From positions 1 to 32,092 of the forward strand of contig SUVA01000013.1 in the NCBI GenBank assembly GCA_015062245.1: a DNA stretch of 32,092 nt, read 5' to 3'. The position numbers and the translations under genes are program-made. Shown here in pieces: positions 3,147 through 32,092 of this stretch. Under the pieces are notes generated by a model. The model saw only the letters and a program-made list of their open reading frames with translations. It made no database searches and was not told where the DNA came from. Positions within the stretch are counted from its first letter, which is position 1. The number at the start of each line of letters is the position of its first letter. This DNA is from Alphaproteobacteria bacterium. GTDB lineage: Bacteria; Pseudomonadota; Alphaproteobacteria; CAAHEQ01; UBA3637.

Positions 3147-3152
3147 TTTCAT

Positions 3153-7363: not shown

Positions 7364-7594
7364 ATGATAACAATAAAAGTTTGTTTGGGAAGTTCGTGTT
7401 ATATCCGTGGTAATGATAAAACCCTTGCGTTTTTAGAAGAATATATACAAAAAAGCAAAAAAAATATTCAAATTGAATTATCAGGTTGTCGCTGTGGTAA
7501 TTTATGCCAAGACGGCCCGAATATATTTATCAACGATAAAAAATATTCGCACCCAACCCAAAAAGAACTTATTCAGATTTTGGAGGCTTTATGA
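7364..7594 (+). CDS. hfsA: Thioredoxin-like [2Fe-2S] ferredoxin (HfsA/NuoE-type)
   Basis: A 76-residue thioredoxin-like 2Fe-2S protein. The four expected cluster cysteines appear as Cys-Leu-Gly-Ser-Ser-Cys near the N-terminus and Gly-Cys-Arg-Cys-Gly-Asn-Leu-Cys in the middle (an extra cysteine is present). Such proteins carry electrons to or from complex I-like and hydrogenase modules. It is the first gene of the operon, overlaps the next gene by four bases (ATGA), and matches the position of hfsA in the hfs hydrogenase operons described in thermophilic clostridia. The symbol is by operon analogy. Confidence 0.8.
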   Translation: MITIKVCLGSSCYIRGNDKTLAFLEEYIQKSKKNIQIELSGCRCGNLCQDGPNIFINDKKYSHPTQKELIQILEAL

Positions 7595-9300: not shown

Positions 9301-10461
9301 ATGTTTATTGATATAGATTGCGCCCAGATAAAAAAACACGGACAAAACGCCTTCGGTGATTATTTTGTATCAAAAAGAACAGATAATCAGGAACGTGTTT
9401 TGGCTGTTCTTTCTGATGGTTTGGGTAGCGGTATCAAAGCCAATATTTTATCCTGTATGACATCCACTATGTTGTTACGCTTTATTGAAGAAGATATTCC
9501 TATTCAAAAAGCCGCCAGCATTATTATGGATTCTTTGCCCGTTTGTCAAATCAGAAAAATCAGCTATGCGACCTTTTCTGCCATTGACTGTCGCAACGAT
9601 GGCAGTGTTTGGGTAGTTGAAGAGGGAAATCCGTCTTTCGTTTTGATGAGAAATAACTCGGATATTCCTTTAGAATACACAGAATTCAGCTCACCAAAAT
9701 TCCCTGACAGACAATTAAAATTATATCAGTTTAAAGCCCAAGACGGAGACAGAATTGTTTTTTGTTCTGACGGTGTTAGTCAGGCCGGTATCGGAACACC
9801 AGAATATCCTTTGGGTTTTCAACGAAAAGGGTTGATTGAGTTTTTAAAAAGTTATCTGAATACCAATTCAAATGTATCCAGCACAAAATTGGCCGGTGAT
9901 GTTATACAAAAAGCCTTAACGATTGAACCAAAACAACATGCCGGTGATGATATTTCTTGCGCTGTTTTGTATTTCAGAAAACCAAGAAAAGCCTTAATTT
10001 TTACAGGCCCGCCCTATAATCGTGTCAAAGATAGGGAATACTGTTTATCTTTTGGTTTCTTTTCGGGTAAAAAAGCCATTTGTGGCGGAACAACGGCAAA
10101 TATGATATCCCGTGAATTAAAACGTGAAATTATAAATGTTACCCATAAAACATCCGGTGATTTACCGCCTATTGCAAAAATGAATGGTGTTGATTTGGTA
10201 ACCGAAGGTATCTTGACATTAACCAGAGCCAGCGAGTATTTAGAACGTGAAGAATTAAAACATAGAGATGCCGCCGGTTTATTGGTTGATTTCCTTTTAA
10301 GTTCTGATATTATTGAATTTATGGTCGGGGCAATGCTGAATCAAGCGCACTACGACCCATCTTTACCAATTGAAATAGAAGTGAGGAGAACAATCATCAA
10401 AAAAATAAAAAATACATTAGAAAATAAATATTTTAAACAGGTTATTATACATTATATATAG
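9301..10461 (+). CDS. hfsC: SpoIIE-type PP2C phosphatase of the hydrogenase operon (HfsC-like)
   Basis: A 386-residue protein whose first 230 residues are a PP2C/SpoIIE-type serine phosphatase: Leu-Ser-Asp-Gly-Leu-Gly-Ser-Gly (38-45) and a later Gly-Asp-Asp-Ile-Ser-Cys supply the metal-binding aspartates. The C-terminal part (about 235-386) is a separate domain with a Gly-Gly-Thr-Thr-Ala-Asn motif, as is usual for phosphatases beside sensory hydrogenases. It starts directly after the stop of the sensory hydrogenase gene, so the two are probably co-translated. A role in relaying the H2 or redox signal by dephosphorylating an unknown partner is inferred from the conserved operon; no partner anti-anti-sigma-like protein is visible here. 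Confidence 0.82.
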   Translation: MFIDIDCAQIKKHGQNAFGDYFVSKRTDNQERVLAVLSDGLGSGIKANILSCMTSTMLLRFIEEDIPIQKAASIIMDSLPVCQIRKISYATFSAIDCRNDGSVWVVEEGNPSFVLMRNNSDIPLEYTEFSSPKFPDRQLKLYQFKAQDGDRIVFCSDGVSQAGIGTPEYPLGFQRKGLIEFLKSYLNTNSNVSSTKLAGDVIQKALTIEPKQHAGDDISCAVLYFRKPRKALIFTGPPYNRVKDREYCLSFGFFSGKKAICGGTTANMISRELKREIINVTHKTSGDLPPIAKMNGVDLVTEGILTLTRASEYLEREELKHRDAAGLLVDFLLSSDIIEFMVGAMLNQAHYDPSLPIEIEVRRTIIKKIKNTLENKYFKQVIIHYI

Positions 10462-10470
10462 GAGGAAAAA

Positions 10471-10734
10471 ATGAGAAAAATAACTGTTAAAGTCTGTCAA
10501 GGGACAACCTGCTTCGTTATGGGTGGGGAAATTATCAAATCCATGCTGAACAGCTTGGAGGAAAAATATGCAGATAAAATTGAAATCTCATCTGTCAGAT
10601 GTTTAGGAGCTTGTGATAAGAGCGATTCTTTTTCAAAAGCACCCTATATTATGGTAGATGACGAAATCATTTCATCCGCAACATTGGAAAAAGTAGTAAC
10701 TGTAATTGAAAGAAAATTAAAAAATGACCAGTAA
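10471..10734 (+). CDS. Thioredoxin-like [2Fe-2S] ferredoxin
   Basis: An 87-residue paralogue of the first operon gene, with Cys-Gln-Gly-Thr-Thr-Cys near the N-terminus and Cys-Leu-Gly-Ala-Cys in the middle as cluster ligands. It has a strong AGGAGG site and overlaps the next gene, the catalytic hydrogenase, by 11 bases in another frame, which points to tight coupling. Likely the electron-transfer small partner of that hydrogenase. The family is clear; the partner is inferred from position. Confidence 0.8.
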   Translation: MRKITVKVCQGTTCFVMGGEIIKSMLNSLEEKYADKIEISSVRCLGACDKSDSFSKAPYIMVDDEIISSATLEKVVTVIERKLKNDQ

Positions 10735-12196
10735 TTCTGAATTAGAAACAAAAAGATTAAAACGTGAAGTTTTGGTGCGATTAATCCGTGCCTTTTTATC
10801 CGATAATTTTGCCGAAAATGCAAGATTAATCCCTTATGATATGCGTCCGAAATATGCCGAAGCACCTTTTCGTTGCTGTAATTATAAGGAACGTGGAATT
10901 TTGCGAGCCAGAACATTGGCTGGCTTGGGCTTTTCCATTGAAGAAGATGATGAAAGAACGCTTTTGTCGGATTATGCCAAAAGGGCCTTGGAACGGGAAA
11001 AACCGGACTCTAATCCTTTGACCGTTGTGGAAAGCGCTTGTCACAGTTGTCCTTCATCTCAGGTTTATGTGACAGAATTATGCCAAAATTGTGTTGCTAA
11101 ACCATGTATGAATGCATGCCGTTTTGGGGCGATATCACACATTGGTGGTAAATCAGTAATTAATCCTGAAAAATGTAAAAAATGTGGCTTATGTATGTCG
11201 GCGTGTCCCTATGGGGCGATTGTCAAGACGGTTGTTCCTTGTGAACAGGCCTGTCCCGTCAACGCTATTACAAAAGATGAGCATGGTTATGCCCGCATTG
11301 ATCACGAAAAATGTATTTCATGCGGAAAATGCGTATCCGCCTGTCCTTTTGGTGCCGTTCACCCAAAATCTCAGGTTATTGATGTTTTAAAACAAATCAA
11401 AGCCGGAAAAAATGTCATTGCTTTGATTGCACCGGCTTTAATCGGCCATTTACCGTGCAACCCGGAACAAATACAGGACGCCTTAAAGAAAATAGGCTTT
11501 TCGGCTGTTTATGAAGTGGCACAAGGGGCCGATATCACAACCCAAATAGAAGCCAAAGATTTCCAAGAACGTTTAGAACAAAGCGCTACTTTTATGACGA
11601 CTTCTTGTTGTGCCGGCTATACCGAATTGGTCAAAAAACATTTACCGGAAATAAAGCCTTTTGTATCTGATGCCAAAACACCGCTTTATTATACGGCTGA
11701 GTTAATAAAAAAAGAATATCCGGATGCCATAACCGTATTTATCAGCCCGTGTTTTGCCAAACGTCGGGAGGTTTTGGATAATCCCAATGTCAATTATTTG
11801 ATGAATTTTGAAGAATTAGGGGCAACTTTAATCGCTATGGGCATTGAAATAGATGCTTGCGAAGAAAAAGAATTTGACTATCAAAGTTCTAAAGAAGCCC
11901 GAGAGTTTGCCCTGACAGGCGGTGTGTCACGTGCCGTGTTGGCCGCTTGGAAAGGCGAAAAAGATGCTGTCAAGCCCGTTGTTATCAATGGTTTAGATAA
12001 AGCATCAATCCGTGATTTGAAAATATATGCCAAAACTGGCAAATGCCCGGCCGGCAACCTAATTGAAGTTATGTGTTGCCCCGGTGGATGTATTGCCGGT
12101 AATGCCTGTTTAGGGTCATTAAAGGATGCATTCAAAAAAGTCACAGCTTATGCAGAAAAAGGACAATCACTAGAAGAAAGGAAAAATGATGAGTGA
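10724..12196 (+). CDS. hfsD: [FeFe]-hydrogenase, group B (catalytic; HfsD-like)
   Basis: A 490-residue enzyme for reversible 2H+ + 2e- to H2. The N-terminal half carries several 4Fe-4S ligand sets between residues about 106 and 210 (Cys-x2-Cys-x3-Cys-Gly-type and Cys-x2-Cys-x2-Cys-x3-Cys-Pro). The H-cluster domain has L1 Thr-Ser-Cys-Cys-Ala-Gly-Tyr (293-299), L2 Ser-Pro-Cys-x-Ala-Lys-Arg-Arg-Glu (341-349) and L3 Glu-Val-Met-Cys-Cys-Pro-Gly-Gly-Cys (448-456). The Ala-Gly-Tyr variant of L1 and the Cys-Cys-Pro variant of L3 are typical of group B. Both L1 cysteines are present, so this copy should be catalytically active, unlike the sensory one upstream. Maturases HydEFG are not in the window and must be elsewhere. 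Confidence 0.92.
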   Translation: MTSNSELETKRLKREVLVRLIRAFLSDNFAENARLIPYDMRPKYAEAPFRCCNYKERGILRARTLAGLGFSIEEDDERTLLSDYAKRALEREKPDSNPLTVVESACHSCPSSQVYVTELCQNCVAKPCMNACRFGAISHIGGKSVINPEKCKKCGLCMSACPYGAIVKTVVPCEQACPVNAITKDEHGYARIDHEKCISCGKCVSACPFGAVHPKSQVIDVLKQIKAGKNVIALIAPALIGHLPCNPEQIQDALKKIGFSAVYEVAQGADITTQIEAKDFQERLEQSATFMTTSCCAGYTELVKKHLPEIKPFVSDAKTPLYYTAELIKKEYPDAITVFISPCFAKRREVLDNPNVNYLMNFEELGATLIAMGIEIDACEEKEFDYQSSKEAREFALTGGVSRAVLAAWKGEKDAVKPVVINGLDKASIRDLKIYAKTGKCPAGNLIEVMCCPGGCIAGNACLGSLKDAFKKVTAYAEKGQSLEERKNDE

Positions 12197-14786
12197 AATT
12201 AAAACAACAGAAGATCTTGAATCTTTAATTGAACGGGTGCATATTGCCCAAAATCAATTTGCGACCTTTTCGGAAGAAAAAGTCAATGCGATTTTTAAAG
12301 CCGCCGCAACAGCAGCCGATAAAATGCGTATTGATTTGGCGGAAATGGCCGTGGCAGAAACAGGCATGGGGGTTTTAGAAGATAAAATCATTAAAAACCA
12401 CTTTGCCGCTGAATATATTTATAACAAGCATAAAGGTGTTAAAACCTGTGGCATTATCAAACGGGATAAAGTGAACGGGACAAAAATTGTTGCTTCTCCT
12501 TTGGGTGTGATTGCCGGTGTTATTCCGACAACAAACCCGACATCTACGGCGATTTTTAAGTCTTTAATCAGTTTAAAAACACGCAACGGTATTATTTTTT
12601 CACCGCACCCACGCGCTAAAAACTGCACGATTGCCGCTGCAAAAGTTGTTTTGGATGCCGCCGTTAAAGCCGGTGCACCCAAGGATATTATCGGTTGGAT
12701 TGATGAACCGTCATTGGAATTGACGCAGACATTAATGACACACCCGAAGATTCAAGCCATCTTGGCAACCGGTGGTCCCGGTATGGTGAAAGCCGCCTAT
12801 TCCAGTGGTAAGCCTGCTTTAGGGGTTGGTTCGGGCAATACACCGGCCGTCATTGATGAAACTGCGGATATTGTTCGTGCCGTATCATCTATTTTAATGT
12901 CTAAAACCTTTGATAACGGTATGATTTGTGCATCCGAGCAATCCGTTATCGTGGTTGATAAAGTGTACGAAGATGTCAAGAAAGAATTTGTCTATCGCGG
13001 TGCATATTTAATGAATGCCCAAGAGATGGAAAAACTCGGCAAAATCATTTTAACGGATAAGGGAACGGTTAATGCTGCTATCGTGGGACAACCTGCCCAT
13101 AAAATTGCCGAACTGGCCGGATTTAAAGTTCCCGAAAATGCCAAAATTTTATTGGCCGAACAAACATCTTATGAGGTTTCAAATCCGTTCGCCCATGAAA
13201 AATTATCACCGATTTTGGCAATGTATAAAGCCGATAGTTTTGAACAGGCAACAGACATGGCCTTTGCCTTGATAAATCTGGGCGGTTTGGGTCATACATC
13301 TGTTTTATACACAGATGAACGTGATCAAACACGTATTGATATGTATGCCCAAAAAATGCCGACAGGACGTATTTTAATCAACAGCCCAGCCTCCCAAGGC
13401 GGTATCGGAGACCTTTACAACTTCCGTTTGGAACCCTCTTTAACTTTGGGTTGCGGTTCTTGGGGCGGAAACTCAGTCAGCGAAAACGTTGGTGTTAAAC
13501 ATTTAGTGAATTATAAAACAGTTGCAGAAAGGAGAGAAAATATGTTGTGGTTCAGAGTACCGTCTAAAATTTACTTTAAACGTGGTTCAACGGAATTGGC
13601 TTTGCGTGAATATGAAGGCAAAAAACGTGCTTTCATTATTACAGACCGTTTCTTGTTTGATTCAGGGGCTGTTCGTACCATTACGGATACCTTTGAAGAA
13701 ATGGATATTGATTATCAGATTTTCTTTGATGTCAAACCCGATCCGACATTATCCACGGCCAAACAGGCTTTGACAATGGTCAACACATATCAGCCTGATT
13801 TGATTGTTGCTTTGGGCGGTGGCTCACCTATGGATGTCGGTAAGATTATTTGGTTGATGTATGAACAACCCGAAACAAACTTTGAAGATATTTCCATGCG
13901 CTTTATGGATATCAGAAAAAGAATTTGTGCTATTCCGGAATTGGGTAAAAAGGCCGATTTGGTCTGTATTCCGACAACTTCCGGTACAGGTTCCGAGGTT
14001 ACACCGTTTTCAATTATTACGGATGACGAATCGCATGTTAAATACGCCATTGCCGATTATGCCTTAACACCCAAAATGGCCATTATTGATGCCAACTTTG
14101 TGGATGGTATGCCCAAAGGCTTAACATCGGCCGGCGGTATTGATGCTTTGGTACATGCTTTGGAAGCCTATGTATCCGTTATGGCGACGAACTATACGAA
14201 CTCTCTTGCCTTGGAAGCCATCAAGCAAATCTTCCGTTATTTGCCGGCTTCTTATGAAGAAGGTGCTAACAATCCCAAAGCCCGTGAAAAAATGCATAAT
14301 GCGGCCACTATTGCCGGTATGGCCTTTGCCAATGCGTTTTTGGGTATTTGCCATTCTATGGCACATAAATTGGGGGCAATGTATAATATCCCGCACGGAA
14401 TTGCCAACGCTTTGTTGATTTGTCAGGTTATTCGTTTTAACGCAACGGATTGCCCGAAGAAACAAGCTATCTTCCCGCAATATAAAGCACCGGAAGCCAA
14501 AAAGCGCTATGGACAAATTGCCCACGTGTTATACTTGGCCGATGAAAAAGCGTCCGATGACGAAAAGGTAGAATTGCTGATTAAAGCCATTGACGAATTA
14601 AAAGGCAAAATCGGTATTCCCAAATCCATTCGTGAATGGGGCGTTGATGAAAAGACCTTTAACGACAACTTGGATAAGTTGGTTCGTTTGGCCTTTGACG
14701 ATCAATGCACGGGTGCCAATCCGGTTTATCCTTTAATGTCAGATATCAAGCAAATTTACTTGGATGCTTTTGAAGGTAAATATTAA
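12189..14786 (+). CDS. adhE: Bifunctional acetaldehyde-CoA/alcohol dehydrogenase AdhE
   Basis: An 865-residue fusion. The N-terminal aldehyde dehydrogenase half converts acetyl-CoA and NADH to acetaldehyde, with the catalytic Cys in Gly-Met-Ile-Cys-Ala-Ser-Glu (about residue 247). The C-terminal iron alcohol dehydrogenase half (from about 455) reduces acetaldehyde to ethanol, with Gly-Gly-Gly-Ser-Pro-Met-Asp for NADH and histidines in Asp-Ala-Leu-Val-His and His-Ser-Met-Ala-His-x9-His for iron. Length fits full AdhE, which forms spirosomes. Two ATGs are adjacent (12186 and 12189); the second is six bases from AGGA, so I prefer it. The start overlaps the hydrogenase stop. Co-transcription with hydrogenase and Rex makes this the NADH-consuming branch of mixed fermentation. 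Confidence 0.97.
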   Translation: MSEIKTTEDLESLIERVHIAQNQFATFSEEKVNAIFKAAATAADKMRIDLAEMAVAETGMGVLEDKIIKNHFAAEYIYNKHKGVKTCGIIKRDKVNGTKIVASPLGVIAGVIPTTNPTSTAIFKSLISLKTRNGIIFSPHPRAKNCTIAAAKVVLDAAVKAGAPKDIIGWIDEPSLELTQTLMTHPKIQAILATGGPGMVKAAYSSGKPALGVGSGNTPAVIDETADIVRAVSSILMSKTFDNGMICASEQSVIVVDKVYEDVKKEFVYRGAYLMNAQEMEKLGKIILTDKGTVNAAIVGQPAHKIAELAGFKVPENAKILLAEQTSYEVSNPFAHEKLSPILAMYKADSFEQATDMAFALINLGGLGHTSVLYTDERDQTRIDMYAQKMPTGRILINSPASQGGIGDLYNFRLEPSLTLGCGSWGGNSVSENVGVKHLVNYKTVAERRENMLWFRVPSKIYFKRGSTELALREYEGKKRAFIITDRFLFDSGAVRTITDTFEEMDIDYQIFFDVKPDPTLSTAKQALTMVNTYQPDLIVALGGGSPMDVGKIIWLMYEQPETNFEDISMRFMDIRKRICAIPELGKKADLVCIPTTSGTGSEVTPFSIITDDESHVKYAIADYALTPKMAIIDANFVDGMPKGLTSAGGIDALVHALEAYVSVMATNYTNSLALEAIKQIFRYLPASYEEGANNPKAREKMHNAATIAGMAFANAFLGICHSMAHKLGAMYNIPHGIANALLICQVIRFNATDCPKKQAIFPQYKAPEAKKRYGQIAHVLYLADEKASDDEKVELLIKAIDELKGKIGIPKSIREWGVDEKTFNDNLDKLVRLAFDDQCTGANPVYPLMSDIKQIYLDAFEGKY

Positions 14787-21654: not shown

Positions 21655-22737
21655 ATGACGGTAAAAAATAAAACAAACAAAAATTATAAAAGAAGTCAAA
21701 AGGGGCGCAGTATGGTTGAAATGCTGGGCGTGCTGGCCATCATAGGCGTTTTGTCCGTAGGTGGCGTTTATGGTTATGGCGTCGCCATGAAAAAACATAA
21801 AGCGAATGAATTATTGCATCAAGCCTCAATGTTGGCCGCCACCATATCGGCACAGGCCATGACCAATGATGGAAAATTGCCCGAAACGATTACAGATTTT
21901 GGTAATACCAACTATGGAACATTTTCCACAAGCGCAACCAACGCTTTGGACGGAAAAGGATTTACGATTACAATTTCTGAAATGGATTCTGCGGTTTGTG
22001 ATCAATTGGAAAAGATGGCGGGCGGTATGGTGCGTGATGTTGATTGTGATGAAGCGACAGGCAACGCCACTATCACCTATTACAAAAACCTGGCAACTAA
22101 TGATGAAGAGGGAAAGAATAGCCCAACAGGGGGAAGTGGTGATACAGAACACACATTGGTTGAAACATGTTCTGATGGAACTTCAACATCAAACATTGGT
22201 GATTCAACGAATGAAAAAACAAAAGATGATATTTGTCGCTGTCCAGGCGATAAACCGCAATGGGATGGTAAAGAATGTAAAAAAGCGGATACCGAAAATA
22301 GCTGTACCAGCTATACAACTCAAGAATGTCCTGAAGGATATTATTGCCAATTTAATGAATGGAATGATTACTATTTAGATGGTCATGGAAATGGTATTTG
22401 TACCAAAATTACAGGAGTTGTAGAGTCTAATGGTTATACAGCTTCAACGCTTCGTTTGAATTGGTGGAGTGGTAACAGTTGGTGTATCGCTCAAACAGGT
22501 AAAGGATTGATTACCGGAGAATTGGCTGGTATTTCATTAATTGGATCAGCTGGTGGAGATCATAGCTTTGAAGGAAGTGGACCATATCAAGAGTTGGGTA
22601 TTACAGGTACTTTTTTCACTGGAAATACAATAGATAATGGAGGTTCTGTATGGTTTATTTCTGTTTCAAAAACAGGCATGTATTTGGACTATGGAACTGA
22701 TGTTACTAATGATTACCGTCCATTGTGTGGGAAATAG
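21655..22737 (+). CDS. Type IV pilin-like protein with variable, lectin-like C-terminus
   Basis: A 360-residue protein. A basic leader (about 18 residues, Lys/Asn-rich) ends in Gly before Arg-Ser-Met-Val-Glu, the prepilin peptidase site with Glu at +5, then a hydrophobic helix. Residues about 19-165 are almost identical to the protein at 30471-31943. After a Gly/Ser/Thr hinge the sequence becomes Cys-rich (about 180-250) and ends in a domain with Leu-Asn-Trp-Trp-Ser-Gly-x-x-Trp-Cys and a terminal Arg-Pro-Leu-Cys-Gly-Lys, similar in pattern to the protein at 1989-3146 and to C-type-lectin-like folds. A ribosome site AAAGGAG precedes the ATG. Likely a surface pilus or pseudopilus subunit with an adhesive tip domain; this is inference. 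Confidence 0.82.
   Translation: MTVKNKTNKNYKRSQKGRSMVEMLGVLAIIGVLSVGGVYGYGVAMKKHKANELLHQASMLAATISAQAMTNDGKLPETITDFGNTNYGTFSTSATNALDGKGFTITISEMDSAVCDQLEKMAGGMVRDVDCDEATGNATITYYKNLATNDEEGKNSPTGGSGDTEHTLVETCSDGTSTSNIGDSTNEKTKDDICRCPGDKPQWDGKECKKADTENSCTSYTTQECPEGYYCQFNEWNDYYLDGHGNGICTKITGVVESNGYTASTLRLNWWSGNSWCIAQTGKGLITGELAGISLIGSAGGDHSFEGSGPYQELGITGTFFTGNTIDNGGSVWFISVSKTGMYLDYGTDVTNDYRPLCGK
21829..22008 (+). repeat. Inverted repeat, copy 1 (identical to 31590-31769)
   Basis: A 180-base stretch of the pilin gene with no mismatch that I could see to the reverse complement of 31590-31769. The flanking coding sequence on the 5' side is also similar but carries several synonymous differences; on the 3' side similarity drops and then resumes around the Asn-Asp-Glu-Glu-Gly-Lys hinge codons. 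Confidence 0.85.
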
Positions 22738-22758
22738 CCTCTGTTGTTTTAAAACCTC

Positions 22759-22785
22759 AGCCCCTCATAACAAGGGGCTAAAATT
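22759..22785. terminator. Terminator between pilin-like gene and valS
   Basis: AGCCCCT pairs with AGGGGCT, followed on the plus strand by AAAATTTTAAAA and preceded by TTTTAAAACC, so it may serve the convergent pilin (plus) and valS (minus) genes. The same stem sequence follows the pilin-like gene at 30471. Confidence 0.6.
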
Positions 22786-22804
22786 TTAAAATCAACTTTT
22801 AAAA

Positions 22805-25441
22805 CTATCCCAATAAGGTCAAAATATCATTGATTTTTTGTAAAGATAATTCACTATCAGAAAGTGATTTTTTCTTTTCTTCAACGATATTTACGGGCGC
22901 CTTTGAAACAAAAGCTTCATTGGAAAGTTGCGCTTTTAATCGGGCAATAAATCCTGTTAAATTATCAATTTCTTTATTCAGGCGTTCTTTTTCCTTTTCA
23001 ACATCCACAATACCCGCCAAAGGAATCAATAATGTCAAACCATCCAACACCTGAGCCACTTCGCCCTTGCCTGTTTCATTGGTAAAGGTTAAATTTTCCA
23101 CACGGGCCAAAGATTTAATAATATCCAAGTTGGTATTGATGATATTTGTTTGTTCATCATTGGCATCTTTGATTTTTAATTGAATCTTTGTGCTGGCCGG
23201 CACATTGACTTGGGTGCGAACCGAACGCACGGATGTGATTAAATCAAAAATCCAATCTTGGTTTTGCATTGAATGAATATCTTCATATTTTGTCCAATCG
23301 GGCCAAGATGTTTCCATCAACATTTGATTACGAACAGCCGTTTTGTCCCATAATTCTTCGGAAATAAAGGGCATAAACGGATGAATCAATTTTAACATTT
23401 CATCCACCACGGCCCCCATCACGGCACGGGTTTCGGCTTTACCCTTTTCATCGTTGCCATAGAAAATGGGTTTTACGGCCTCCAAATACTTATCACAGAA
23501 TGTGTTCCACACAAAGTGATACAACACATTGCTGGCTTCGTTAAAAGCATAAGTTTCCATCCACTTGGCGATTTCTTTGGCCGCCAAAGATAATTTGGTA
23601 ATCATCCATTTATTGATAGGCAATTGAACCAAACTTAAATCCGAAGCATTATGTGTCATTTCGTTCATTTCGCAAAAACGAACAGCATTCCAAATCTTGG
23701 TGGTAAAATTACGATAATTTTCCACACGGGATTCGCCCATCAACACACTGCGACCTGAACCTTCCTGAACCACCAAAGAAAAGCGCAAAGCATCGGCGCC
23801 ATATTTATCACACATAGCCAAAGGATCAATGCCGTTTCCTTTGGATTTGCTCATTTTTTGGCCTTTTTCATCACGCACCAAACCATGCAAGTGGATTTCC
23901 TTGAACGGCACTTGATGCATATTGTACATACTCATCATCATCATTCGGGCCACCCAGAAAAAGATAATATCAAAACCTGTAATCAAAACGGATGTCGGAT
24001 AGTATTTTTTCAAATGCACGTCATCTTCATTGGGCCAACCCAATGTTGAAAAAGCCCATAATCCCGATGAAAACCAAGTATCCAAAACGTCCGTATCACG
24101 TGTCAAAACGGTCGGCTGACCATAATGTTTATCAGCTTCGGCCTGAGCCAATTGTTCGGTTTCTTCGCAAAAGATTTTGCCATCCGGACCATACCAAACA
24201 GGCACCTGATGTCCCCACCACAATTGACGGGAAATACACCACGGTTGAATATCCTGCATCCAAGAATAATACATATTTTCCCAGTTTTCAGGCACAAACT
24301 TTGTGTTGCCGGATTTAACCGCTTCCACAGCCGCCGGTGCCAACTTGGATGTATCCACAAACCATTGATCGGTCAACCACGGTTCAATAATCACATCCGA
24401 ACGATCACCATAGGGAATGGTCATAGGGTTATCTTCTTCGTGATCATACAAACCCAAAGCTTTGATATCTTCTAACACCAAAGGACGGGCCTGCAACGGG
24501 GACATACCTTGATATTTTTCGGGAACGTTTTCGTTGAGTTTTGCTTCTTTTGTCAATAAATTCACCAAAGGTAATTGATGGCGTTTACCAACCTCAAAAT
24601 CGTTAAAGTCATGGGCGGGGGTAATTTTCACAGCGCCTGTTCCTTTTTCGGGATCGGCGTGTTCATCCGCCACAACGGGAATCGGCTTATTGATAATCGG
24701 AATCAAAACATTTTTGCCGATAAAATCCTGATAACGTTCGTCTTTATCCGAAACCGCCACAGCCGTATCACCAAACAATGTTTCAGGACGTGTTGTACCC
24801 ACCATAATGAATTTTTCGGGATTATTTTCCAAAGGATATTTGAAATACCACATTTTGCCGACAGTTTCCTTTTGAACCACTTCCAAATCAGAAATCGCCG
24901 TTTGTAATTTCGGATCCCAGTTGACCAAGCGTTTATCACGATAAATCAAACCGTCCTTATACATTTTAACAAAAACTTTGCGCACGGCGGCTGACAAGCC
25001 TTCATCCATGGTAAAACGTTCACGGGACCAATCACAAGAACAGCCCAAACGTTTTAATTGGTTAACAATCTGACCACCGGAATGAGCCTTCCATTCCCAC
25101 ACTTTTTCCAAAAACTTTTCACGACCCAAATCATGGCGGGAAATGTTTTCTTTGGCCAACATTCTTTCCACAACCATTTGAGTGGCAATACCGGCGTGAT
25201 CCGTACCCGGTTGCCATAACACATCAAAACCTTTCATGCGCTTATAACGACACACCGTATCCTGTAAGGCATAGTTCAAAGCATGCCCGATATGCAAATT
25301 ACCCGTCACATTAGGGGGCGGAATAACAATAGAAAAAGGCGGTTTTTCAGATTCGGGATGACAGGCAAATAAATCTTTATCCGTCCATTTTTGAAAAATT
25401 TCTTTTTCGGCAGTTTGTGGGTTAAAAGCTTTTTCCAACAT
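22805..25441 (-). CDS. valS: Valyl-tRNA synthetase
   Basis: An 878-residue class I synthetase. The HIGH motif is at residues 50-53 within Pro-Pro-Pro-Asn-Val-Thr-Gly-Asn-Leu-His, and Lys-Met-Ser-Lys-Ser-Lys-Gly-Asn lies near residue 545. The editing domain lies between, the anticodon domain after, and the C-terminal 65 residues form the coiled coil typical of ValRS. Full length, with AAAGGA before the ATG and its own promoter. Convergent with the pilin-like gene at 21655. Confidence 0.98.
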   Translation of the reverse strand: MLEKAFNPQTAEKEIFQKWTDKDLFACHPESEKPPFSIVIPPPNVTGNLHIGHALNYALQDTVCRYKRMKGFDVLWQPGTDHAGIATQMVVERMLAKENISRHDLGREKFLEKVWEWKAHSGGQIVNQLKRLGCSCDWSRERFTMDEGLSAAVRKVFVKMYKDGLIYRDKRLVNWDPKLQTAISDLEVVQKETVGKMWYFKYPLENNPEKFIMVGTTRPETLFGDTAVAVSDKDERYQDFIGKNVLIPIINKPIPVVADEHADPEKGTGAVKITPAHDFNDFEVGKRHQLPLVNLLTKEAKLNENVPEKYQGMSPLQARPLVLEDIKALGLYDHEEDNPMTIPYGDRSDVIIEPWLTDQWFVDTSKLAPAAVEAVKSGNTKFVPENWENMYYSWMQDIQPWCISRQLWWGHQVPVWYGPDGKIFCEETEQLAQAEADKHYGQPTVLTRDTDVLDTWFSSGLWAFSTLGWPNEDDVHLKKYYPTSVLITGFDIIFFWVARMMMMSMYNMHQVPFKEIHLHGLVRDEKGQKMSKSKGNGIDPLAMCDKYGADALRFSLVVQEGSGRSVLMGESRVENYRNFTTKIWNAVRFCEMNEMTHNASDLSLVQLPINKWMITKLSLAAKEIAKWMETYAFNEASNVLYHFVWNTFCDKYLEAVKPIFYGNDEKGKAETRAVMGAVVDEMLKLIHPFMPFISEELWDKTAVRNQMLMETSWPDWTKYEDIHSMQNQDWIFDLITSVRSVRTQVNVPASTKIQLKIKDANDEQTNIINTNLDIIKSLARVENLTFTNETGKGEVAQVLDGLTLLIPLAGIVDVEKEKERLNKEIDNLTGFIARLKAQLSNEAFVSKAPVNIVEEKKKSLSDSELSLQKINDILTLLG

Positions 25442-25471
25442 ATCAAATTCCTTTTGTTAAATATGGGGGAT

Positions 25472-25500
25472 ATTATAGCCTGTCCCCCTTCAAAAGTCAA
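25472..25500 (-). promoter_or_regulatory. Promoter of valS
   Basis: Minus strand TTGACT (25500-25495), 17-base spacer, TATAAT (25477-25472). Confidence 0.75.
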
Positions 25501-25533
25501 GGAATTTTAAACAGTAAATATCTTGGAAAAATT

Positions 25534-26616
25534 TCAGCTTGTTTTTTGCATAACGCACAAAAAGAAACCGTCTGTTTGTGTCAGATAAGGGGAATAGCGC
25601 TTTTGTTTTATAACAGTATAATTTGGATGTTCTGCCAAAAATTTTTCAACCTGTTGTTCGTTTTCATCAAAGGTTAAAGAACAGGTAATATATGACAAAT
25701 ATCCCCCTGTTTTTAAATATTGTTCGGCCCGATTTAAAATTTCACCTTGTGTTTTCACAATATGATTTAATTGTTTTTCGGTTAAATGCCAACGCATATT
25801 AGGCGTTCTGCGCCACGTACCACAGCCCGAACAAGGGGCATCCACCACCACATGATCAAACTTTTTATCGGGGCGCTCCAATTTTGTAATAATTTTAATA
25901 ATTTTAATTTGCGCCCGTGTGGCCCGTTTGACCAACTCAAACAATTTTTTGGGCGTTATGTCGTAAGCCTGAATTTGTCCTTGATTTTGCATCATTTGGG
26001 CAAAAATTAAAGATTTTCCCCCTGCCCCGGCACAAAAATCAAACACACTTTGCTTGGGTTTTACGCCAATTTCCAACGATAAAAGCTGAGCCCCTTCATC
26101 TTGAATTTCCAACATCCCCTTTTTCCAAGCATTCGTATTTTTTATATTGGCATATGTTTTTAAAATAATGCCAAAGGGTGATTTTGCGCAAAGCTCTACA
26201 TCTAATCCTTCATTTTTCAGGCTTTCTAAAATCTCATCACGTTGGCCGATAGCTCTTAAAATAATTGGCGGATTTTCCAATAAGGCGGGTAACTCATTTT
26301 TCGCCTCAGGAATATGCGATAAAAACCATTCGGGCACTTCCCATTGAATCCAATCGGGTGCCTGTGATGTTTCAGGAACGCCGTTTTGTATGAACTTTTG
26401 AACACGGCTTTGCCAATTATCATCCGGATAAGCCCACTTTAATCTGGCCTGACAGCGAATAACAGACCACACAAGTTTCAAAAATTCGACCTTTTCAGGA
26501 CCTTTTATAAATTTATGTTTAGCCAAATAATCATTGATGATTTCAGGGGCAACAGCAGGCTTTTTATCTATAACCCGCATTAAATCAACCAAAACCATCA
26601 ACTCACGATCATTCAT
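25534..26616 (-). CDS. RsmB-like rRNA/RNA m5C methyltransferase (NOL1/NOP2/Sun family)
   Basis: A 360-residue SAM-dependent cytosine-C5 methyltransferase. The SAM site is Asp-Phe-Cys-Ala-Gly-Ala-Gly-Gly-Lys-Ser; the two catalytic cysteines lie in Asp-Ala-Pro-Cys-Ser-Gly-Cys-Gly-Thr-Trp-Arg-Arg and Tyr-Ile-Thr-Cys-Ser-Leu. The motif pattern is closest to RsmB (16S C967), but the N-terminal region is short and lacks the full NusB-like domain, so the exact target base is uncertain. The start overlaps the pth stop by four bases, forming an rplY-pth-rsmB operon on the minus strand. Confidence 0.88.
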   Translation of the reverse strand: MNDRELMVLVDLMRVIDKKPAVAPEIINDYLAKHKFIKGPEKVEFLKLVWSVIRCQARLKWAYPDDNWQSRVQKFIQNGVPETSQAPDWIQWEVPEWFLSHIPEAKNELPALLENPPIILRAIGQRDEILESLKNEGLDVELCAKSPFGIILKTYANIKNTNAWKKGMLEIQDEGAQLLSLEIGVKPKQSVFDFCAGAGGKSLIFAQMMQNQGQIQAYDITPKKLFELVKRATRAQIKIIKIITKLERPDKKFDHVVVDAPCSGCGTWRRTPNMRWHLTEKQLNHIVKTQGEILNRAEQYLKTGGYLSYITCSLTFDENEQQVEKFLAEHPNYTVIKQKRYSPYLTQTDGFFLCVMQKTS

Positions 26617-27164
26617 TTGATTTTATTCATAAAGGCAGACATATCGCCATTGAGTAATAATTCAACATTTTGGGCAATTTGTTCAAATAAACCATCCAAA
26701 ATCTTTTGTTCATCAGCGGACGGTTTGCCCAATACATAATTGGCCGTATCAATCATTTTGTTTTTATCAACGCCAATACGCACACGCATATAATCAACAC
26801 CAATATGCAAATCTATATTTTTAATACCGTTATGACCACCACTGCCACCACCGATTTTTACCTTTACTTTACCAACAGGTAAATCCAAATCATCATGAAA
26901 AACGATAACGTCTTTCGGATGAATCTTATAAAAAGCCATTACGCTTTGAACGGATTCGCCCGATAAATTCATATAGGTTTCAGGTTTTAAAACAAAACAT
27001 TTTTGACCGTTTATTTCACCTTTTGACAAAAGTCCTTTATGTTCTGATTTAAAGGCATCAAAGGAAAAGCGGCGGACAAGTTCGTCCACCGCCTGAAATC
27101 CCATATTGTGGCGGGTTTTTGCATATTCCGTTCCCGGATTGCCCAATCCCACCAACAACTTCAT
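26613..27164 (-). CDS. pth: Peptidyl-tRNA hydrolase
   Basis: A 183-residue hydrolase that frees tRNA from dropped-off peptidyl-tRNA. Gly-Leu-Gly-Asn-Pro-Gly near the N-terminus, catalytic His19 in Thr-Arg-His-Asn-Met-Gly, Phe-His-Asp-Asp-Leu-Asp, and Gly-Gly-Ser-Gly-Gly-His-Asn-Gly are all present. It shares one base with the end of rplY and overlaps the methyltransferase start, the usual rplY-pth pairing. Confidence 0.98.
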   Translation of the reverse strand: MKLLVGLGNPGTEYAKTRHNMGFQAVDELVRRFSFDAFKSEHKGLLSKGEINGQKCFVLKPETYMNLSGESVQSVMAFYKIHPKDVIVFHDDLDLPVGKVKVKIGGGSGGHNGIKNIDLHIGVDYMRVRIGVDKNKMIDTANYVLGKPSADEQKILDGLFEQIAQNVELLLNGDMSAFMNKIK

Positions 27165-27796
27165 TATTTTTTCTCCTCTGTTTTTTCTGCTTCAACCGGG
27201 GCCGCTTCTGGTGTATTGTCAGCAACGGTTTCTTCCTGTGGTGCCACAACGCTGGCCACTGTGAAGTCTTCTTTGGCTGACAAAGAAACACCTTCGGGTA
27301 ATTGAATGTCAAAAGCGTTAAAGGCATCACCGATTTCGGCTTTGGACAAATCAACCGTAAAGTATTCAGGAATTTTATCAGCCGTACATTTTGCTTCAAC
27401 CGTACGGTGCACGATGTTCAACACACCGCCTTTTTTGAAGCCAGGAGCAACATCTTCACCAACAAATTGCAAAGGAATATCCAAGGTCAGTAAAGCTGTC
27501 TTTGAAATTCTTAAAAAATCCGCATGAATCGGGCGATTTGAAACCGGATGTTTTTGAATATCTTGGCATAACACCAAATGTTTTTCTTTTCCATCCACAT
27601 TGATTTCATATTGACGGGTCCAAAGACCTTTTTTATTCATTTCAGCCACCATGAATTTTTCTTCAATGGCGATCATTTCAGGAGCCTGTTTATCCCCATA
27701 AATAACGGCAGGAATAAACCCCTTAAGACGAATAGCCCGAGAGGCCCCCTTGCCAGCTTTTTCACGCTTTGTTGCGTTTAATGATACTGTTTTCAT
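27164..27796 (-). CDS. rplY: 50S ribosomal protein L25 (CTC/general stress form)
   Basis: A 210-residue L25 of the long CTC type: the 5S rRNA-binding L25 domain (about 1-92, with Lys-Gly-x-Ile-Pro-Ala-Val-Ile-Tyr-Gly) followed by the TL5-like C-terminal beta domain and a Glu/Ala/Pro-rich tail. The AAAAGGAT site precedes the ATG. First gene of the rplY-pth-methyltransferase operon, with its own promoter and a hairpin in its leader. Confidence 0.96.
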   Translation of the reverse strand: MKTVSLNATKREKAGKGASRAIRLKGFIPAVIYGDKQAPEMIAIEEKFMVAEMNKKGLWTRQYEINVDGKEKHLVLCQDIQKHPVSNRPIHADFLRISKTALLTLDIPLQFVGEDVAPGFKKGGVLNIVHRTVEAKCTADKIPEYFTVDLSKAEIGDAFNAFDIQLPEGVSLSAKEDFTVASVVAPQEETVADNTPEAAPVEAEKTEEKK

Positions 27797-27824
27797 TTTT
27801 TATCCTTTTTTGTTTTTAAGTAAC

Positions 27825-27852
27825 GGATTTTTCCTCCAGGGGTGAAAAATCC
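27825..27852 (-). promoter_or_regulatory. Hairpin in the rplY leader
   Basis: Minus strand GGATTTTTC and GAAAAATCC pair perfectly over nine bases with a ten-base loop (ACCCCTGGAG). It lies about 28 bases before the rplY start and contains a GGAGG sequence at the loop edge. Could be an autoregulatory site; there is no T tract, so it is not a terminator. Confidence 0.45.
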
Positions 27853-27881
27853 CATCCATATCACATGATACGAACAGTGAT

Positions 27882-27909
27882 ATTATACACATTTTTCAAA
27901 AAAATGCAA
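27882..27909 (-). promoter_or_regulatory. Promoter of the rplY operon
   Basis: Minus strand TTGCAT (27909-27904), 16-base spacer, TATAAT (27887-27882). Confidence 0.7.
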
Positions 27910-27920
27910 GAAAATTTATA

Positions 27921-29240
27921 TTATTGTTCGGTTTTATTTTTTATCGGCAACATAATCAAAACTCGCAAACCTTTCATAGGCGAAGTTTCCAATTTAATTT
28001 CACCGCCATGCGATAAAATCGTATCCCGTGCAATTGTCATACCCAAACCGACACCGCCCGTATTTTTATTACGGGACGGTTCCACCCGATAAAAAGGTTT
28101 AAAAACTTCTTCGCGTTTTTTGGCGGGAATCCCCGGACCGTTATCATCAACGGTTACCTGAATCATATCGTCCCGAATCCCCATAGAAATATTTGTTTTG
28201 GTGGCATAATTTTGCGCATTGGATATTAAATTTGAAAAAGCACGCATCAGTTCATGAGGGCGTGCCATCAACTTAGCCGGTTGTTCAATGTGCAAAAAGA
28301 CACCAAAACCGACACGTTTATATTTTTCCACCAAGGAAGTTAAAAATAAATCCAAATCAATTTCTTCCATTTTTTCTTTGCCGGCGCCCCGGGCAAAATC
28401 CAAATATCCCGTCAACATACTTTCCATTTCGTTGATATCCTGATGCAACATTTGGGTTGTTTCATCGGGTTCCATCATTGATAATTCCAACTTCATTCGT
28501 GTTAAGGGGGTGCGCAAATCATGCGAAACACCGGCCAACATTGATGTCCGTTCACTCATATAACGGGCCAAACGTTCCTTCATTTCAATAAAAGAAAGAC
28601 CGGCCAAACGAACCTCATAAGCTCCCTCAGGCTTGAATTTCACCTCTTGCCCCATACCAAATAACTCGGCCGCTTTTGCCAAACGGGTAATCGCCCGAAC
28701 CTGATTTTTCATAAACAAAAATGCGATTAAAAACAGCAAAGTAGAAGACCCCAACATCCACCACAAAAAAGACGGAACGGTTGTGCTGAAAAATCTTTTG
28801 CGTGGCACAATAACGCTTAAAACACCTTTTGATAACTGAATATCAATTTCCTGTTCGCCTTTTTCATTTGTAAAAGTCGTTTGGGGATAAGGTAAATCTT
28901 CAATTTTGTTTCGCAATTTTGCAGACGTTAAACGTTCGTTTATTTTATCATAAGAGAGTTTTTCATCCGCTTTCCATTCAAGATGCATACCTAAATTTTT
29001 TTCAAACACATCTAACTTGGCGCTTGGGTCTTCCTGCATTTCCGACCAATGGGCGATTAAACGAATTTCACCGATAACGTCGTTGGCCAAGCGCCGGCTG
29101 ATCGTATCCCAGTGCTTATTGAAAAAGTAAATACCGACCATTGCCTGTAATATCACCAACGGTAATAAAATAATCAAAATAAATCGGGCCAATAAATGAC
29201 GCGGGAAAAACTTTCTTTTTAACCATTTAAAAAATATCAT
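27921..29240 (-). CDS. EnvZ-like sensor histidine kinase
   Basis: A 439-residue inner-membrane kinase. Membrane helices at about 20-40 and 157-177 enclose a periplasmic sensor region of about 115 residues; a HAMP linker follows (about 178-230). The phosphorylated His is His240 in Gly-Val-Ser-His-Asp-Leu-Arg-Thr-Pro-Leu, and the ATPase boxes Asn-Leu-Ile-Ser-Asn-Ala, Asp-Asp-Asn-Gly-Pro-Gly-Ile and Gly-Gly-Val-Gly-Leu-Gly-Met follow. It shares one base with the stop of the response regulator gene, so they are a pair. The Pro after the phospho-His region and the domain order match EnvZ-type kinases. The signal is unknown. Confidence 0.93.
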   Translation of the reverse strand: MIFFKWLKRKFFPRHLLARFILIILLPLVILQAMVGIYFFNKHWDTISRRLANDVIGEIRLIAHWSEMQEDPSAKLDVFEKNLGMHLEWKADEKLSYDKINERLTSAKLRNKIEDLPYPQTTFTNEKGEQEIDIQLSKGVLSVIVPRKRFFSTTVPSFLWWMLGSSTLLFLIAFLFMKNQVRAITRLAKAAELFGMGQEVKFKPEGAYEVRLAGLSFIEMKERLARYMSERTSMLAGVSHDLRTPLTRMKLELSMMEPDETTQMLHQDINEMESMLTGYLDFARGAGKEKMEEIDLDLFLTSLVEKYKRVGFGVFLHIEQPAKLMARPHELMRAFSNLISNAQNYATKTNISMGIRDDMIQVTVDDNGPGIPAKKREEVFKPFYRVEPSRNKNTGGVGLGMTIARDTILSHGGEIKLETSPMKGLRVLIMLPIKNKTEQ

Positions 29241-29905
29241 TACAACCTCACTAACTTATACCCCTGCCCCCGAATGGATTGAATCCAAACGGGATGTTTG
29301 GGATCTTTTTCAATTTTGCGTCTGAGACGGGTAATTTGAACATCCACCGTGCGGATGGAATCCGTTTTTAATTTTTGCGCCAATTCTTCACGGGTTAAAA
29401 CACTATCAACCGATTGCACCAAAATATCCAACAGTTGTTGTTCTGCACCGGTTAAAGAAACAGGAATATTTTGATTTATCAAAGACTTTTTTGATTTAAT
29501 GTAAGTAAAATCACCAAACGAAACAGTATCCGAAAAACTTTGTTGATGTTTCATCAGGTTTTTAATTCTTAGCAACAATTCTTTTGGATCAAACGGTTTG
29601 GGCAAATAATCATCAGCACCGGCCTCTAATCCATTAATGCGACTGGCCACATCCCCCATGGCCGTCAACATTAAAATAGGTGTTTGAATGCCTTTTTGGC
29701 GCAATTCTTGGGTATATTCAACGCCGTTTTTATGGGGCATCATCACATCCATTATCACCGCATCAAAGATAAACAGTTGAAATAATTCTTGTGCCTGAAT
29801 ACAATCTTCGGCCACCGAAACCAAAAATCCCGCCTGAGTCAGGTACTGTTTTAATAACTGACGCAACCGTTTATCATCATCCACAACCAATAAATGTCCA
29901 ACCAT
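29240..29905 (-). CDS. OmpR-family response regulator
   Basis: A 221-residue regulator. The receiver domain has Asp9-Asp10-Asp11 acidic residues, phospho-acceptor Asp53 in Ile-Met-Asp-Val-Met-Met-Pro, and Lys in Leu-Pro-Lys-Pro-Phe. The C-terminal winged helix ends with Val-Asp-Val-Gln-Ile-Thr-Arg-Leu-Arg-Arg-Lys-Ile and Ile-Arg-Gly-Gln-Gly-Tyr, as in OmpR. It sits between an HPt-like gene and its kinase. Targets are unknown. Confidence 0.94.
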   Translation of the reverse strand: MVGHLLVVDDDKRLRQLLKQYLTQAGFLVSVAEDCIQAQELFQLFIFDAVIMDVMMPHKNGVEYTQELRQKGIQTPILMLTAMGDVASRINGLEAGADDYLPKPFDPKELLLRIKNLMKHQQSFSDTVSFGDFTYIKSKKSLINQNIPVSLTGAEQQLLDILVQSVDSVLTREELAQKLKTDSIRTVDVQITRLRRKIEKDPKHPVWIQSIRGQGYKLVRL

Positions 29906-29917
29906 TTAATACCTTTT

Positions 29918-30349
29918 TTATATCAGTTGGTTTAAAATTCGGCGCCCTTCTTCACCGCCGTCCCCGCTGATACGTTTCCATAAAATGTTTTGCAGGGTTA
30001 AAACGTCATTATAAACACTTTCAAATTCTATTTTATTAAAAATTTTATGACTTTGGATGTAATTATAAAGGTGTGAAGCCACATCCGTTACCAAAGGATA
30101 ACCAAAGACAGCACCTTGATTTTTCAAACGCATTGCAATGGGCAACAATCGGGAATGGATATGTTCGGCCCGATGGGGATTAGACAAATTCCGTGCTTCA
30201 TTCAAAGCCAAGCGCATTGTTTGAACTTCACCACACACCATCATTGGAAAAGCACGGGCCAAATCCGCCTGAGCCTCAGCTTCAATTTGTTCTTTTGAAG
30301 AATGTTTTTTGTTTTCTTTTAAGTTATTCGGCAATTTAAAAACGGGCAT
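29918..30349 (-). CDS. HPt-like helical protein lacking the usual histidine
   Basis: A 143-residue protein, mostly helical after a charged N-terminus. Residues 66-98 resemble alphaproteobacterial HPt proteins, whose core reads roughly Ile-Ala-His-x-Ile-Lys-Gly-Gln-Gly-x-x-Phe-Gly-Tyr-Pro-Leu. Here it is Ile-Ala-Met73-Arg-Leu-Lys-Asn-Gln-Gly-Ala-Val-Phe-Gly-Tyr-Pro-Leu, so the phospho-accepting His would be Met. It is the first gene of an operon with a response regulator and kinase. It may be a regulatory pseudo-HPt that binds but does not pass phosphate. The family call rests on my reading of one motif and is moderate. Confidence 0.6.
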   Translation of the reverse strand: MPVFKLPNNLKENKKHSSKEQIEAEAQADLARAFPMMVCGEVQTMRLALNEARNLSNPHRAEHIHSRLLPIAMRLKNQGAVFGYPLVTDVASHLYNYIQSHKIFNKIEFESVYNDVLTLQNILWKRISGDGGEEGRRILNQLI

Positions 30350-30369
30350 TTTGACCTCCTTTTTTGAAA

Positions 30370-30398
30370 ATTATAGAAAAATTTTATTTAAATGTCCA
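30370..30398 (-). promoter_or_regulatory. Promoter of the HPt-like/response regulator/kinase operon
   Basis: Minus strand TGGACA (30398-30393), 17-base spacer, TATAAT (30375-30370), then a strong AAAGGAGGT ribosome site before 30349. Confidence 0.75.
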
Positions 30399-30416
30399 GT
30401 TTTTTATTAAAAATCT

Positions 30417-30441
30417 CAGCCCCTTGGGATTCAAGGGGCTG
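30417..30441 (-). terminator. Terminator of the pilin-like gene at 30471
   Basis: Minus strand CAGCCCCTT/AAGGGGCTG with a seven-base loop, followed by AGATTTTT. Same stem as the terminator at 22759, supporting a shared origin of the two pilin units including their 3' ends. Confidence 0.75.
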
Positions 30442-30470
30442 ATGTTTTTCCTACGCATTCAGGTCTTAGA

Positions 30471-31943
30471 TTAGTTTTCACAATCACAACTGCAATTATG
30501 TCCGTTACAACTGGACGTTCCCTTAGTTGCTCCTATACCATATTGACAAAAATCATTACATTGTTCTTTGGCATATTCTTCCATCGGCATACAGCCATGA
30601 ACTTCATAAGCAGAGGCATTCCAGTAATAAAATCCTATTTCTGAACATTTTTCTAAAGTACAACTATCAGCACTACCATCCTCAACACAAGGATTAGGAT
30701 TAAGCTCTTCACATGTACAAATAGCACTACTACATGTATAATATCCGGAACACTGCGATGAAATCTCATTTTCATTTTTATAGCAATTCGACGAATCAGT
30801 TAACCAATACCCCTCTACACTTAGGCAACTTTGAGATGTCGATATACCACACGCAGAATACGAATCGGTGAGTTCTAGACATTCGGCAAGTGTACGTTCA
30901 CGACATGAACAAATATGACCATCGCAATCTCCAGTTCCCCCCAATTGACTTTGAGGTACTTCATTACTATAATAAACTTCACACAAATTAATCACACTAG
31001 CCACATCTTCATGACAGCGGTTGTGTACTGTGTCCCAATAATATCCGTCTGCTAAGCAGTCGGATTGCGAATCATAGCAAATGTATATACAGTCCGTCGA
31101 AAGGTCATATTTTGCGCAACATTCAGCTGGTGGCAATTGGACACAACTACAATCATGACCATTACATTGCAAAAATTCATTCTTTTCTACCCCGTCATCA
31201 CAACACCCACCCGAGGAGTATATCCAACTTTTTAATTGACATTCATTTTTTAATCCGCACCAATAACCACCTTTTGAAAGACACTCTGATTTTGTTTTGT
31301 CTGAACCTATACATGTCGAAGGATCTTCGGCACACTCATCCGGAAAACATCCCTCTCTATCATCCCAAAATCCACCTACTGCCTGACAAGCCTCTGGTGT
31401 TTCACAGCCCTCCAAATTTCCAACCTCACATAATGGTTTTGCTCCGCTTTCATCACTTCCCCCAGTTGGACTATTTTTTCCCTCTTCGTCATTGGTGGCC
31501 AAGTTTTTATAGTAGGTGATTTTGGCATCTTTTTTGCCTGAGGTTGCAGAATCAACACATTCAACACCTTGAACCATACCGCCTGCTTTCAATTGATCAC
31601 AAACCGCAGAATCCATTTCAGAAATTGTAATCGTAAATCCTTTTCCGTCCAAAGCGTTGGTTGCGCTTGTGGAAAATGTTCCATAGTTGGTATTACCAAA
31701 ATCTGTAATCGTTTCGGGCAATTTTCCATCATTGGTCATGGCCTGTGCCGATATGGTGGCGGCCAACATACTGGCTTGATGTAATAATTCATTGGCTTTA
31801 TGTTTTTTCATGGCGACACCATAGCCATACACGCCACCTACGGACAAAACGCCTATGATGGCCAGTACGCCCAGCATTTCAAGCATACTGCGCCCCTTTT
31901 GACTTCTTTTATAATTTTTGTTTGTTTTATTTTTTACTGACAT
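30471..31943 (-). CDS. Type IV pilin-like protein with repeated cysteine-rich modules
   Basis: A 490-residue protein. The leader and processing site (Gly then Arg-Ser-Met-Leu-Glu) and the first 160 residues nearly match the protein at 21655-22737. After the same Asn-Asp-Glu-Glu-Gly-Lys hinge the remainder is unrelated to that protein and very rich in cysteine. It is built of imperfect modules of about 60-75 residues, marked by Cys-x-Gly-His-x-Cys-Ser-Cys or close variants (near residues 259, 347, 405 and at the very end) and by Gly-Tyr-Tyr-Trp or Gly-Tyr-Trp before Asn-x-Cys. No lectin-like end is visible. The final residues are Cys-Asp-Cys-Glu-Asn. A disulfide-rich stalk or adhesive domain on a pilus is the likely role. 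AGGAG precedes the ATG. Confidence 0.8.
   Translation of the reverse strand: MSVKNKTNKNYKRSQKGRSMLEMLGVLAIIGVLSVGGVYGYGVAMKKHKANELLHQASMLAATISAQAMTNDGKLPETITDFGNTNYGTFSTSATNALDGKGFTITISEMDSAVCDQLKAGGMVQGVECVDSATSGKKDAKITYYKNLATNDEEGKNSPTGGSDESGAKPLCEVGNLEGCETPEACQAVGGFWDDREGCFPDECAEDPSTCIGSDKTKSECLSKGGYWCGLKNECQLKSWIYSSGGCCDDGVEKNEFLQCNGHDCSCVQLPPAECCAKYDLSTDCIYICYDSQSDCLADGYYWDTVHNRCHEDVASVINLCEVYYSNEVPQSQLGGTGDCDGHICSCRERTLAECLELTDSYSACGISTSQSCLSVEGYWLTDSSNCYKNENEISSQCSGYYTCSSAICTCEELNPNPCVEDGSADSCTLEKCSEIGFYYWNASAYEVHGCMPMEEYAKEQCNDFCQYGIGATKGTSSCNGHNCSCDCEN
31590..31769 (-). repeat. Inverted repeat, copy 2 (identical to 21829-22008)
   Basis: Reverse complement of the 180-base stretch in the other pilin gene; see that entry. 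The two lie about 9.6 kb apart in inverted orientation, around valS, rsmB-pth-rplY and the two-component genes. Confidence 0.85.
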
Positions 31944-32092
31944 TTTATACTCCTTTCTATTTAAGTTATTTGTAAAAATTGTTTTTGTTGTTCAGGCATT
32001 AAAATTTAAATTATCTAAATTCTTCGCTAACAACGCTCATCATTAATATAATTTTTAAATTTTAGTTCCTTTCGTTAAATGTTAAGACAGTA
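31944..32092 (-). promoter_or_regulatory. AT-rich leader of the pilin-like gene at 30471
   Basis: Contains an inverted repeat AAAATTTAAA-AA-TTAT/ATAATTTAAATTTT (about 32064-32005, read on the minus strand) enclosing a ten-codon ATG frame, then AGAAAGGAG before the start. No clear -35/-10 pair was found before the window ends. It does not resemble the leader at 21438-21628, although the coding starts of the two genes are nearly identical. Confidence 0.4.

Follow-up and report, generated by a model that had tools for sequence, protein, structure and literature searches.

Two pilin-like genes, P0001 and P0002, share a sharply bounded tract of 180 identical nucleotides in inverted orientation within the window, i.e., the whole 32,092-nt stretch of DNA analysed here (Table 1). 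Both are members of a pilin-like gene family with about 50 copies scattered over the genome, which probably encodes modular pilins related to type IVb, and the tract would have arisen by ectopic gene conversion, as one of many reshufflings of leaders, N-domain blocks and C-terminal modules.

Table 1. Pilin-like genes, their 5′ leaders and the repeated segments in the window
Feature	Position	Strand	Basis
180-nt identical tract, P0001 copy	21829..22008	+	exact-match comparison
180-nt identical tract, P0002 copy	31590..31769	-	exact-match comparison
360-nt inverted-repeat arm, 96% alike, over the 5′ part of P0001	21652..22011	+	
360-nt inverted-repeat arm, 96% alike, over the 5′ part of P0002	31587..31946	-	
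P0001, pilin-like gene, 360 aa	21655..22737	+	
P0002, pilin-like gene, 490 aa	30471..31943	-	
Third pilin-like member, 387 aa, whose C-terminal WWSA...ALC module resembles the one in P0001	1989..3152	-	
P0001 5′ leader, of a class differing from that of P0002	21530..21654	+	
P0002 5′ leader	31944..32080	-	

The match between the two genes is exact and maximal, 21829-22008 being the reverse complement of 31590-31769, and it lies within the two 360-nt inverted arms, which are spaced 9,575 nt apart. The original prediction of a perfect 180-bp inverted identity between genes 9.6 kb apart was thus borne out. In the 174 coding bases 5′ of the tract (21655-21828), P0001 and P0002 differ at 12 positions, nine of them synonymous (three of these within one serine codon, 21826-21828) and three amino-acid-changing (21658, 21660 and 21715). 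These differences had been described as synonymous and confined to the first 170 bases or so; three of the 12 change an amino acid. At the 3′ border, 22008 is the final common base, with differences beginning at 22009 and followed by a 6-nt indel. The two sequences can still be aligned for about 130 nt past the border, first at 73.5% identity and then at 88.6% over 44 nt, and are unrelated from there on, so that the earlier description of unrelated C-terminal halves applies overall but not to this first portion.

Given the divergence of the first part, the chance of 180 matching bases is low (P about 3e-6). Site permutation yielded a pairwise p < 1/5000 for the tract, both with all polymorphic sites and with third positions, and a family-wide p of 0.001 with all sites vs a non-significant 0.40 with third positions only, which comprise 23 sites and have little power. 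A stronger argument than the permutation statistics is the position of the identity: in the block that contains the tract, no other paralog comes closer to P0001 or P0002 than about 80% identity. The tract is therefore private to this pair and does not represent a constrained stretch.

The protein encoded by P0001 consists of a prepilin leader followed by a hydrophobic helix (G17/R18), a pilin head reaching to about residue 145, a linker, a Cys-rich part and a C-type-lectin-like module (residues 256-360). In class III signal peptides of type IV pilins, a hydrophilic leader ending in Gly precedes a run of some 21 hydrophobic residues that carries Glu at +5; these features can be read directly in P0001 (RSQKG/RSMVEMLGVLAIIGVLSVGG). 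With default thresholds, neither Pfam nor NCBIfam assigned P0001 or P0002 to a family. The Pfam family N_methyl matched 10 of 18 aligned members of the pilin-like family, with P0001 falling under the curated cut-off. An AlphaFold model of P0001, built with 17 relatives and of moderate confidence (pLDDT 68.7, pTM 0.45), comprises a helix (20-70), strands (88-143), a low-confidence stretch and then a module (229-360), and contains the long N-terminal helix and beta-sheet head that are the hallmark of type IV pilins. Residues 18-142 superimposed on the pilin TcpA with a VIA-align Z of 7.5 (120 residues, 4.2 Å), and residues 256-360 on C-type-lectin-like domains with a Z of 8.7 (86 residues, 2.5 Å). 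For the latter segment, nearly all of the best 50 VIA-align rows have the C-type-lectin-like fold, intimin included. Foldseek alone gave no E-value below 0.001 for this C-terminal module, and Pfam gave no match to it. By its predicted fold, and with no function implied, P0001 would be a type IVb-like pilin with a separate C-type-lectin-like module at its C terminus; the predicted segment 256-360 is the kind of extra, separately folded unit beyond the pilin part by which modular pilins are recognised. P0002 has an N-domain as in P0001 and continues into an unrelated C-terminal part of Cys-rich repeats.

The window stems from a draft genome (G000) of 1.12 Mb in 27 contigs that is 94% complete. 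Searching it with the N-domain of P0001 returned 65 matches, of which 53 to 54 had an E-value under 1e-8; since some matches are the halves of a gene split by a contig end, the family size of about 50 genes is an estimate. The genes are dispersed over the genome in both orientations and are not clustered. Beyond the window, the stretches around pilin genes and the contig ends were examined, and, leaving aside copies truncated at a contig end, most family members examined there have an intact reading frame with a start and a leader. The pilin-like family is present in all 43 genomes searched from the taxonomic family; copy numbers range from 5 to 96, and genome sizes from about 0.7 to 1.8 Mb. 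Relatives in public collections are mostly metagenome-assembled Alphaproteobacteria, many of them named for animal gut samples, and a few records carry other names. Among the family we also noted short pilins (about 130-175 aa) that occur in tandem pairs and lack a large C-terminal module (L038 at G000:C4:7500-10077, L108 and L110); these are candidates for major pilins. Another C-terminal part, ending in FKTNLDE, is present in L041, L043 and L044 and is common to copies L109, L114, L116 and L118 of the related genome G001.

Aligning the pilin-like genes of the genome and mapping their identity tracts, the check suggested along with the original prediction, revealed mosaic N-domains and exchange of C-terminal parts among other copies. 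Divided into three blocks, the N-domains of P0001 and P0002 are 94%, 98% and 73.5% identical, and in the third block the nearest relative differs between the two genes. All but one of the 12 differences 5′ of the tract correspond to alleles that are both found in other paralogs. The PHI test on 23 copies gave z = -10.8 (third positions, z = -5.1), and significant tracts were detected in 54 of 325 pairs using all sites and in 6 of 325 using third positions. Several pairs are chimeric: L012 and L023 are 64%, 64% and 78% alike in their N blocks and 96.5% over 375 nt of the C-terminal part, L004 and L011 have a middle block at 50% and a C-terminal part at 79% over 676 nt, and for L008 and L021 the corresponding values are 54% and 81% over 660 nt. 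It is these three pairs, and not P0001 and P0002, that back the idea of a constant assembly part linked to interchangeable display domains. We read the mosaics and chimeras as probable traces of ectopic homologous recombination. The bounded tract, the mosaics across the family and the occurrence of the differences as alleles in other paralogs likewise lend good support to the gene conversion suggested at the outset, which may have been recent.

Each of the two genes, P0001 and P0002, comes with a separate leader, ribosome-binding site and start. The P0002 leader matches eight other sites of the genome over at least 114 nt (95-99%), the majority of which are located at the end of a contig or close to it. 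The P0001 leader resembles those of L032 and L043 (83-88% over about 65 nt). One leader class carries (AC)5-8 tracts about 116-213 nt upstream of the start codon. Such (AC)5-8 or (TG)n tracts were seen 5′ of pilin starts at window positions 3241-3300 and in the leaders of L004, L007, L009, L013, L014, L016, L019 and L026, and are a possible slippage site for phase variation.

Elsewhere in the window, positions 1-4413 contain direct repeats of about 120-160 nt between small genes, spaced at about 0.8-1.6 kb and with hairpin-like parts (AGTCCGAT...ATCGGACT). Similar stretches are also present on contig C17, and the layout looks somewhat like that of a gene-cassette array. At 7591-14786, two genes with iron-only hydrogenase domains flank a gene for a SpoIIE-type phosphatase and are followed by a fused aldehyde/iron-type alcohol dehydrogenase gene (AdhE-like), which suggests an anaerobic fermentative metabolism. 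A search of the window against Rfam returned nothing above the gathering score.

Comparison with related genomes places the homogenisation of the N-domains within the window's own genome. A pilin gene adjoins yidC in both the window and G001; between the two, identity is 76% for YidC and likeness 50% for the N-domains. The other genus members examined showed no pilin next to yidC. In seven comparisons of G000 and G001 pilin loci with at least one common flanking gene, most of which rest on one common flank (both flanks are common at L032/L113), the N-domains are 36-50% alike and the flanking proteins 66-95%. The N-domain of the best own paralog reached 82-94% in six of the seven G001 locus comparisons, the seventh (L039, 49%) not fitting. 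In the close own family, codons at identical residues of the first helix match in 69% of cases, where codon usage alone would give 43%. The figure is 45-46% when own copies are compared with those of sister species, and 43% within G002, no more than codon usage predicts. These figures demonstrate strong homogenisation at the DNA level in the window's own genome but not in G002, and DNA-level homogenisation as a genus-wide rule was rejected for this reason.

G000 encodes a type IVb pilus operon on contig C25 with TcpQ, a secretin, PilO, T2SSE and T2SSF, further T2SSE ATPases beyond this operon, and a single prepilin peptidase match (C26:34962). It thus has the set of parts by which a type IVb pilus system is recognised: TcpQ, a secretin, an accessory protein of PilO type, an assembly ATPase, a platform protein and a prepilin peptidase. 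Judging from gene content, the C25 machine may assemble the pilin-like family. In the mechanism that we propose, the 180-bp tract would have been copied between P0001 and P0002 by ectopic homologous recombination, and 5′ leaders, N-domain blocks and C-terminal modules would be reshuffled among the copies genome-wide. Cleavage of the conserved N-terminal part (prepilin leader, long helix and head) would fall to the one prepilin peptidase matched in the genome, and its assembly to the type IVb pilus machine. The variable C-terminal part, whether C-type-lectin-like or Cys-rich, would serve as an exposed binding module. Recombination would keep the N-terminal parts alike and at the same time yield new combinations of leader, N-terminal part and end. 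The lectin-like modules have variable ...ALCE ends, which led us to consider a diversity-generating retroelement; this was rejected, as no match to reverse transcriptase PF00078 was found in the genome (94% complete).

The pair could also stem from a recent duplication, in which the 5′ half of one gene was copied to a new site along with another C-terminal part, and other paralogs subsequently overwrote the first 170 bases. P0002 lacks a counterpart upstream of the u143/RR/HK genes in G001 and may thus be a newcomer, and a tract private to the two genes would fit such an origin. Yet their leaders differ, so that no simple copy of a gene start is seen, and the later overwriting would be gene conversion itself; this scenario, which departs from ours mainly in the order of events, appears unlikely to us. 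The inverted pair had further been suspected of flipping the 9.6 kb in between; in such an invertible switch, the two genes would serve as recombination sites at which 5′ ends are exchanged. We found no support for this and consider it highly improbable: both genes have their own starts, ribosome-binding sites and leaders, about 50 other copies exist in both orientations, none of the window proteins scanned matched a recombinase family, and the segment between the arms carries housekeeping genes and includes valS, an rsmB-like gene, pth, the gene for ribosomal protein L25 and a two-component pair. This judgement stands even though 180 identical bases in inverted arms suffice for homologous recombination and the gene block past the yidC pilin in G001 is the one that ends contig C17 (right end) in G000, which indicates a rearrangement breakpoint, or an assembly join, at the yidC pilin.

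The assembly itself has to be weighed as well, because many G000 contig ends fall in N-domains or leaders of the family and several groups of them share exactly 127 nt, as if the contigs had been assembled with k = 127 and broken at these repeats. The assembly may be in error where contigs were joined across repeats of more than 127 nt, and since the 180-nt tract exceeds this k, the assembled orientation of the 9.6 kb could stem from a mis-join. If both loci had been passed through one common path, either the identity itself or the pairing of N-terminal with C-terminal parts would be erroneous. A mis-join, however, swaps flanks and does not create identity, and mosaics are present in many other copies. 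The tract is moreover shorter than 2k, so that an internal difference should not have been able to form and pop a bubble at the final k. We consider an assembly artefact very unlikely, and ectopic gene conversion within the family remains our preferred explanation.

Several known systems offer parallels. In Neisseria, gene conversion acts among the pilin sequences of pilE and pilS, which have a conserved N-terminal part, and silent truncated cassettes feed one expressed gene. Gene conversion is the likeness to the family described here, the difference being that most copies examined in the latter have an intact reading frame and a leader of their own; a Neisseria-type silent cassette system was rejected on these grounds. 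The pilin locus of Moraxella consists of an inverted gene pair with a common 5′ part, in which a dedicated invertase flips a short segment and joins one promoter and start to either end. P0001 and P0002 are also an inverted pair with a common 5′ part, but both have starts, and 9.6 kb with housekeeping genes separates them. The pili of the IncI plasmids R64 and TP114 belong to the type IVb class, which the pilus proposed here would resemble. In these plasmids, as in the family studied here, a constant N-terminal part is combined with alternative C-terminal ends, which are adhesin ends in the plasmids, and the PilV shufflon thereby alters the C-terminal end of a minor pilin acting as an adhesin (PMC9045228). 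The shufflon involves one gene with clustered cassettes and a tyrosine recombinase acting at sfx sites, whereas we find dispersed full-length genes with marks of homologous recombination.

Modular pilins have been described as widespread and as bearing many kinds of extra module (PMC8179133). Streptococcus sanguinis PilB and PilC (PMC8179133, PMC9934059) combine an assembly pilin part with an extra ligand-binding module, an arrangement that the predicted fold of P0001 recalls, and lectin-type modules occur among modular pilins. The S. sanguinis modules are of the vWA or concanavalin A type, whereas a C-type-lectin-like fold is predicted for the extra module of P0001, and S. sanguinis has two modular pilins, compared with about 50 in a 1.1-Mb genome with recombination among the copies. 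The present case thus differs from known modular pilins and shufflons in copy number, dispersal and apparent mechanism. A search of the open-access literature, with subscription journals mostly outside its scope, found no earlier description of this pilin-like family in gut Alphaproteobacteria.

More speculatively, the family may amount to a dispersed, chromosome-wide equivalent of a shufflon, in which the leaders, N-domains and ligand-binding ends of some 50 full-length modular pilins recombine continually, cells of one population carry different sets of binding domains, and (AC)n tracts in one leader class lead to phase-variable expression; we regard this wider picture as possible but doubtful. 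If recombination is ongoing, surface ligands would be varied without a retroelement. The recurrent contig breaks in pilin-like genes are one reason why such genomes assemble poorly. For the small genomes of these uncultured, mostly gut-derived bacteria, 5 to 96 copies represent a large investment, an indication that the ability to attach to varied surfaces is important for their way of life.
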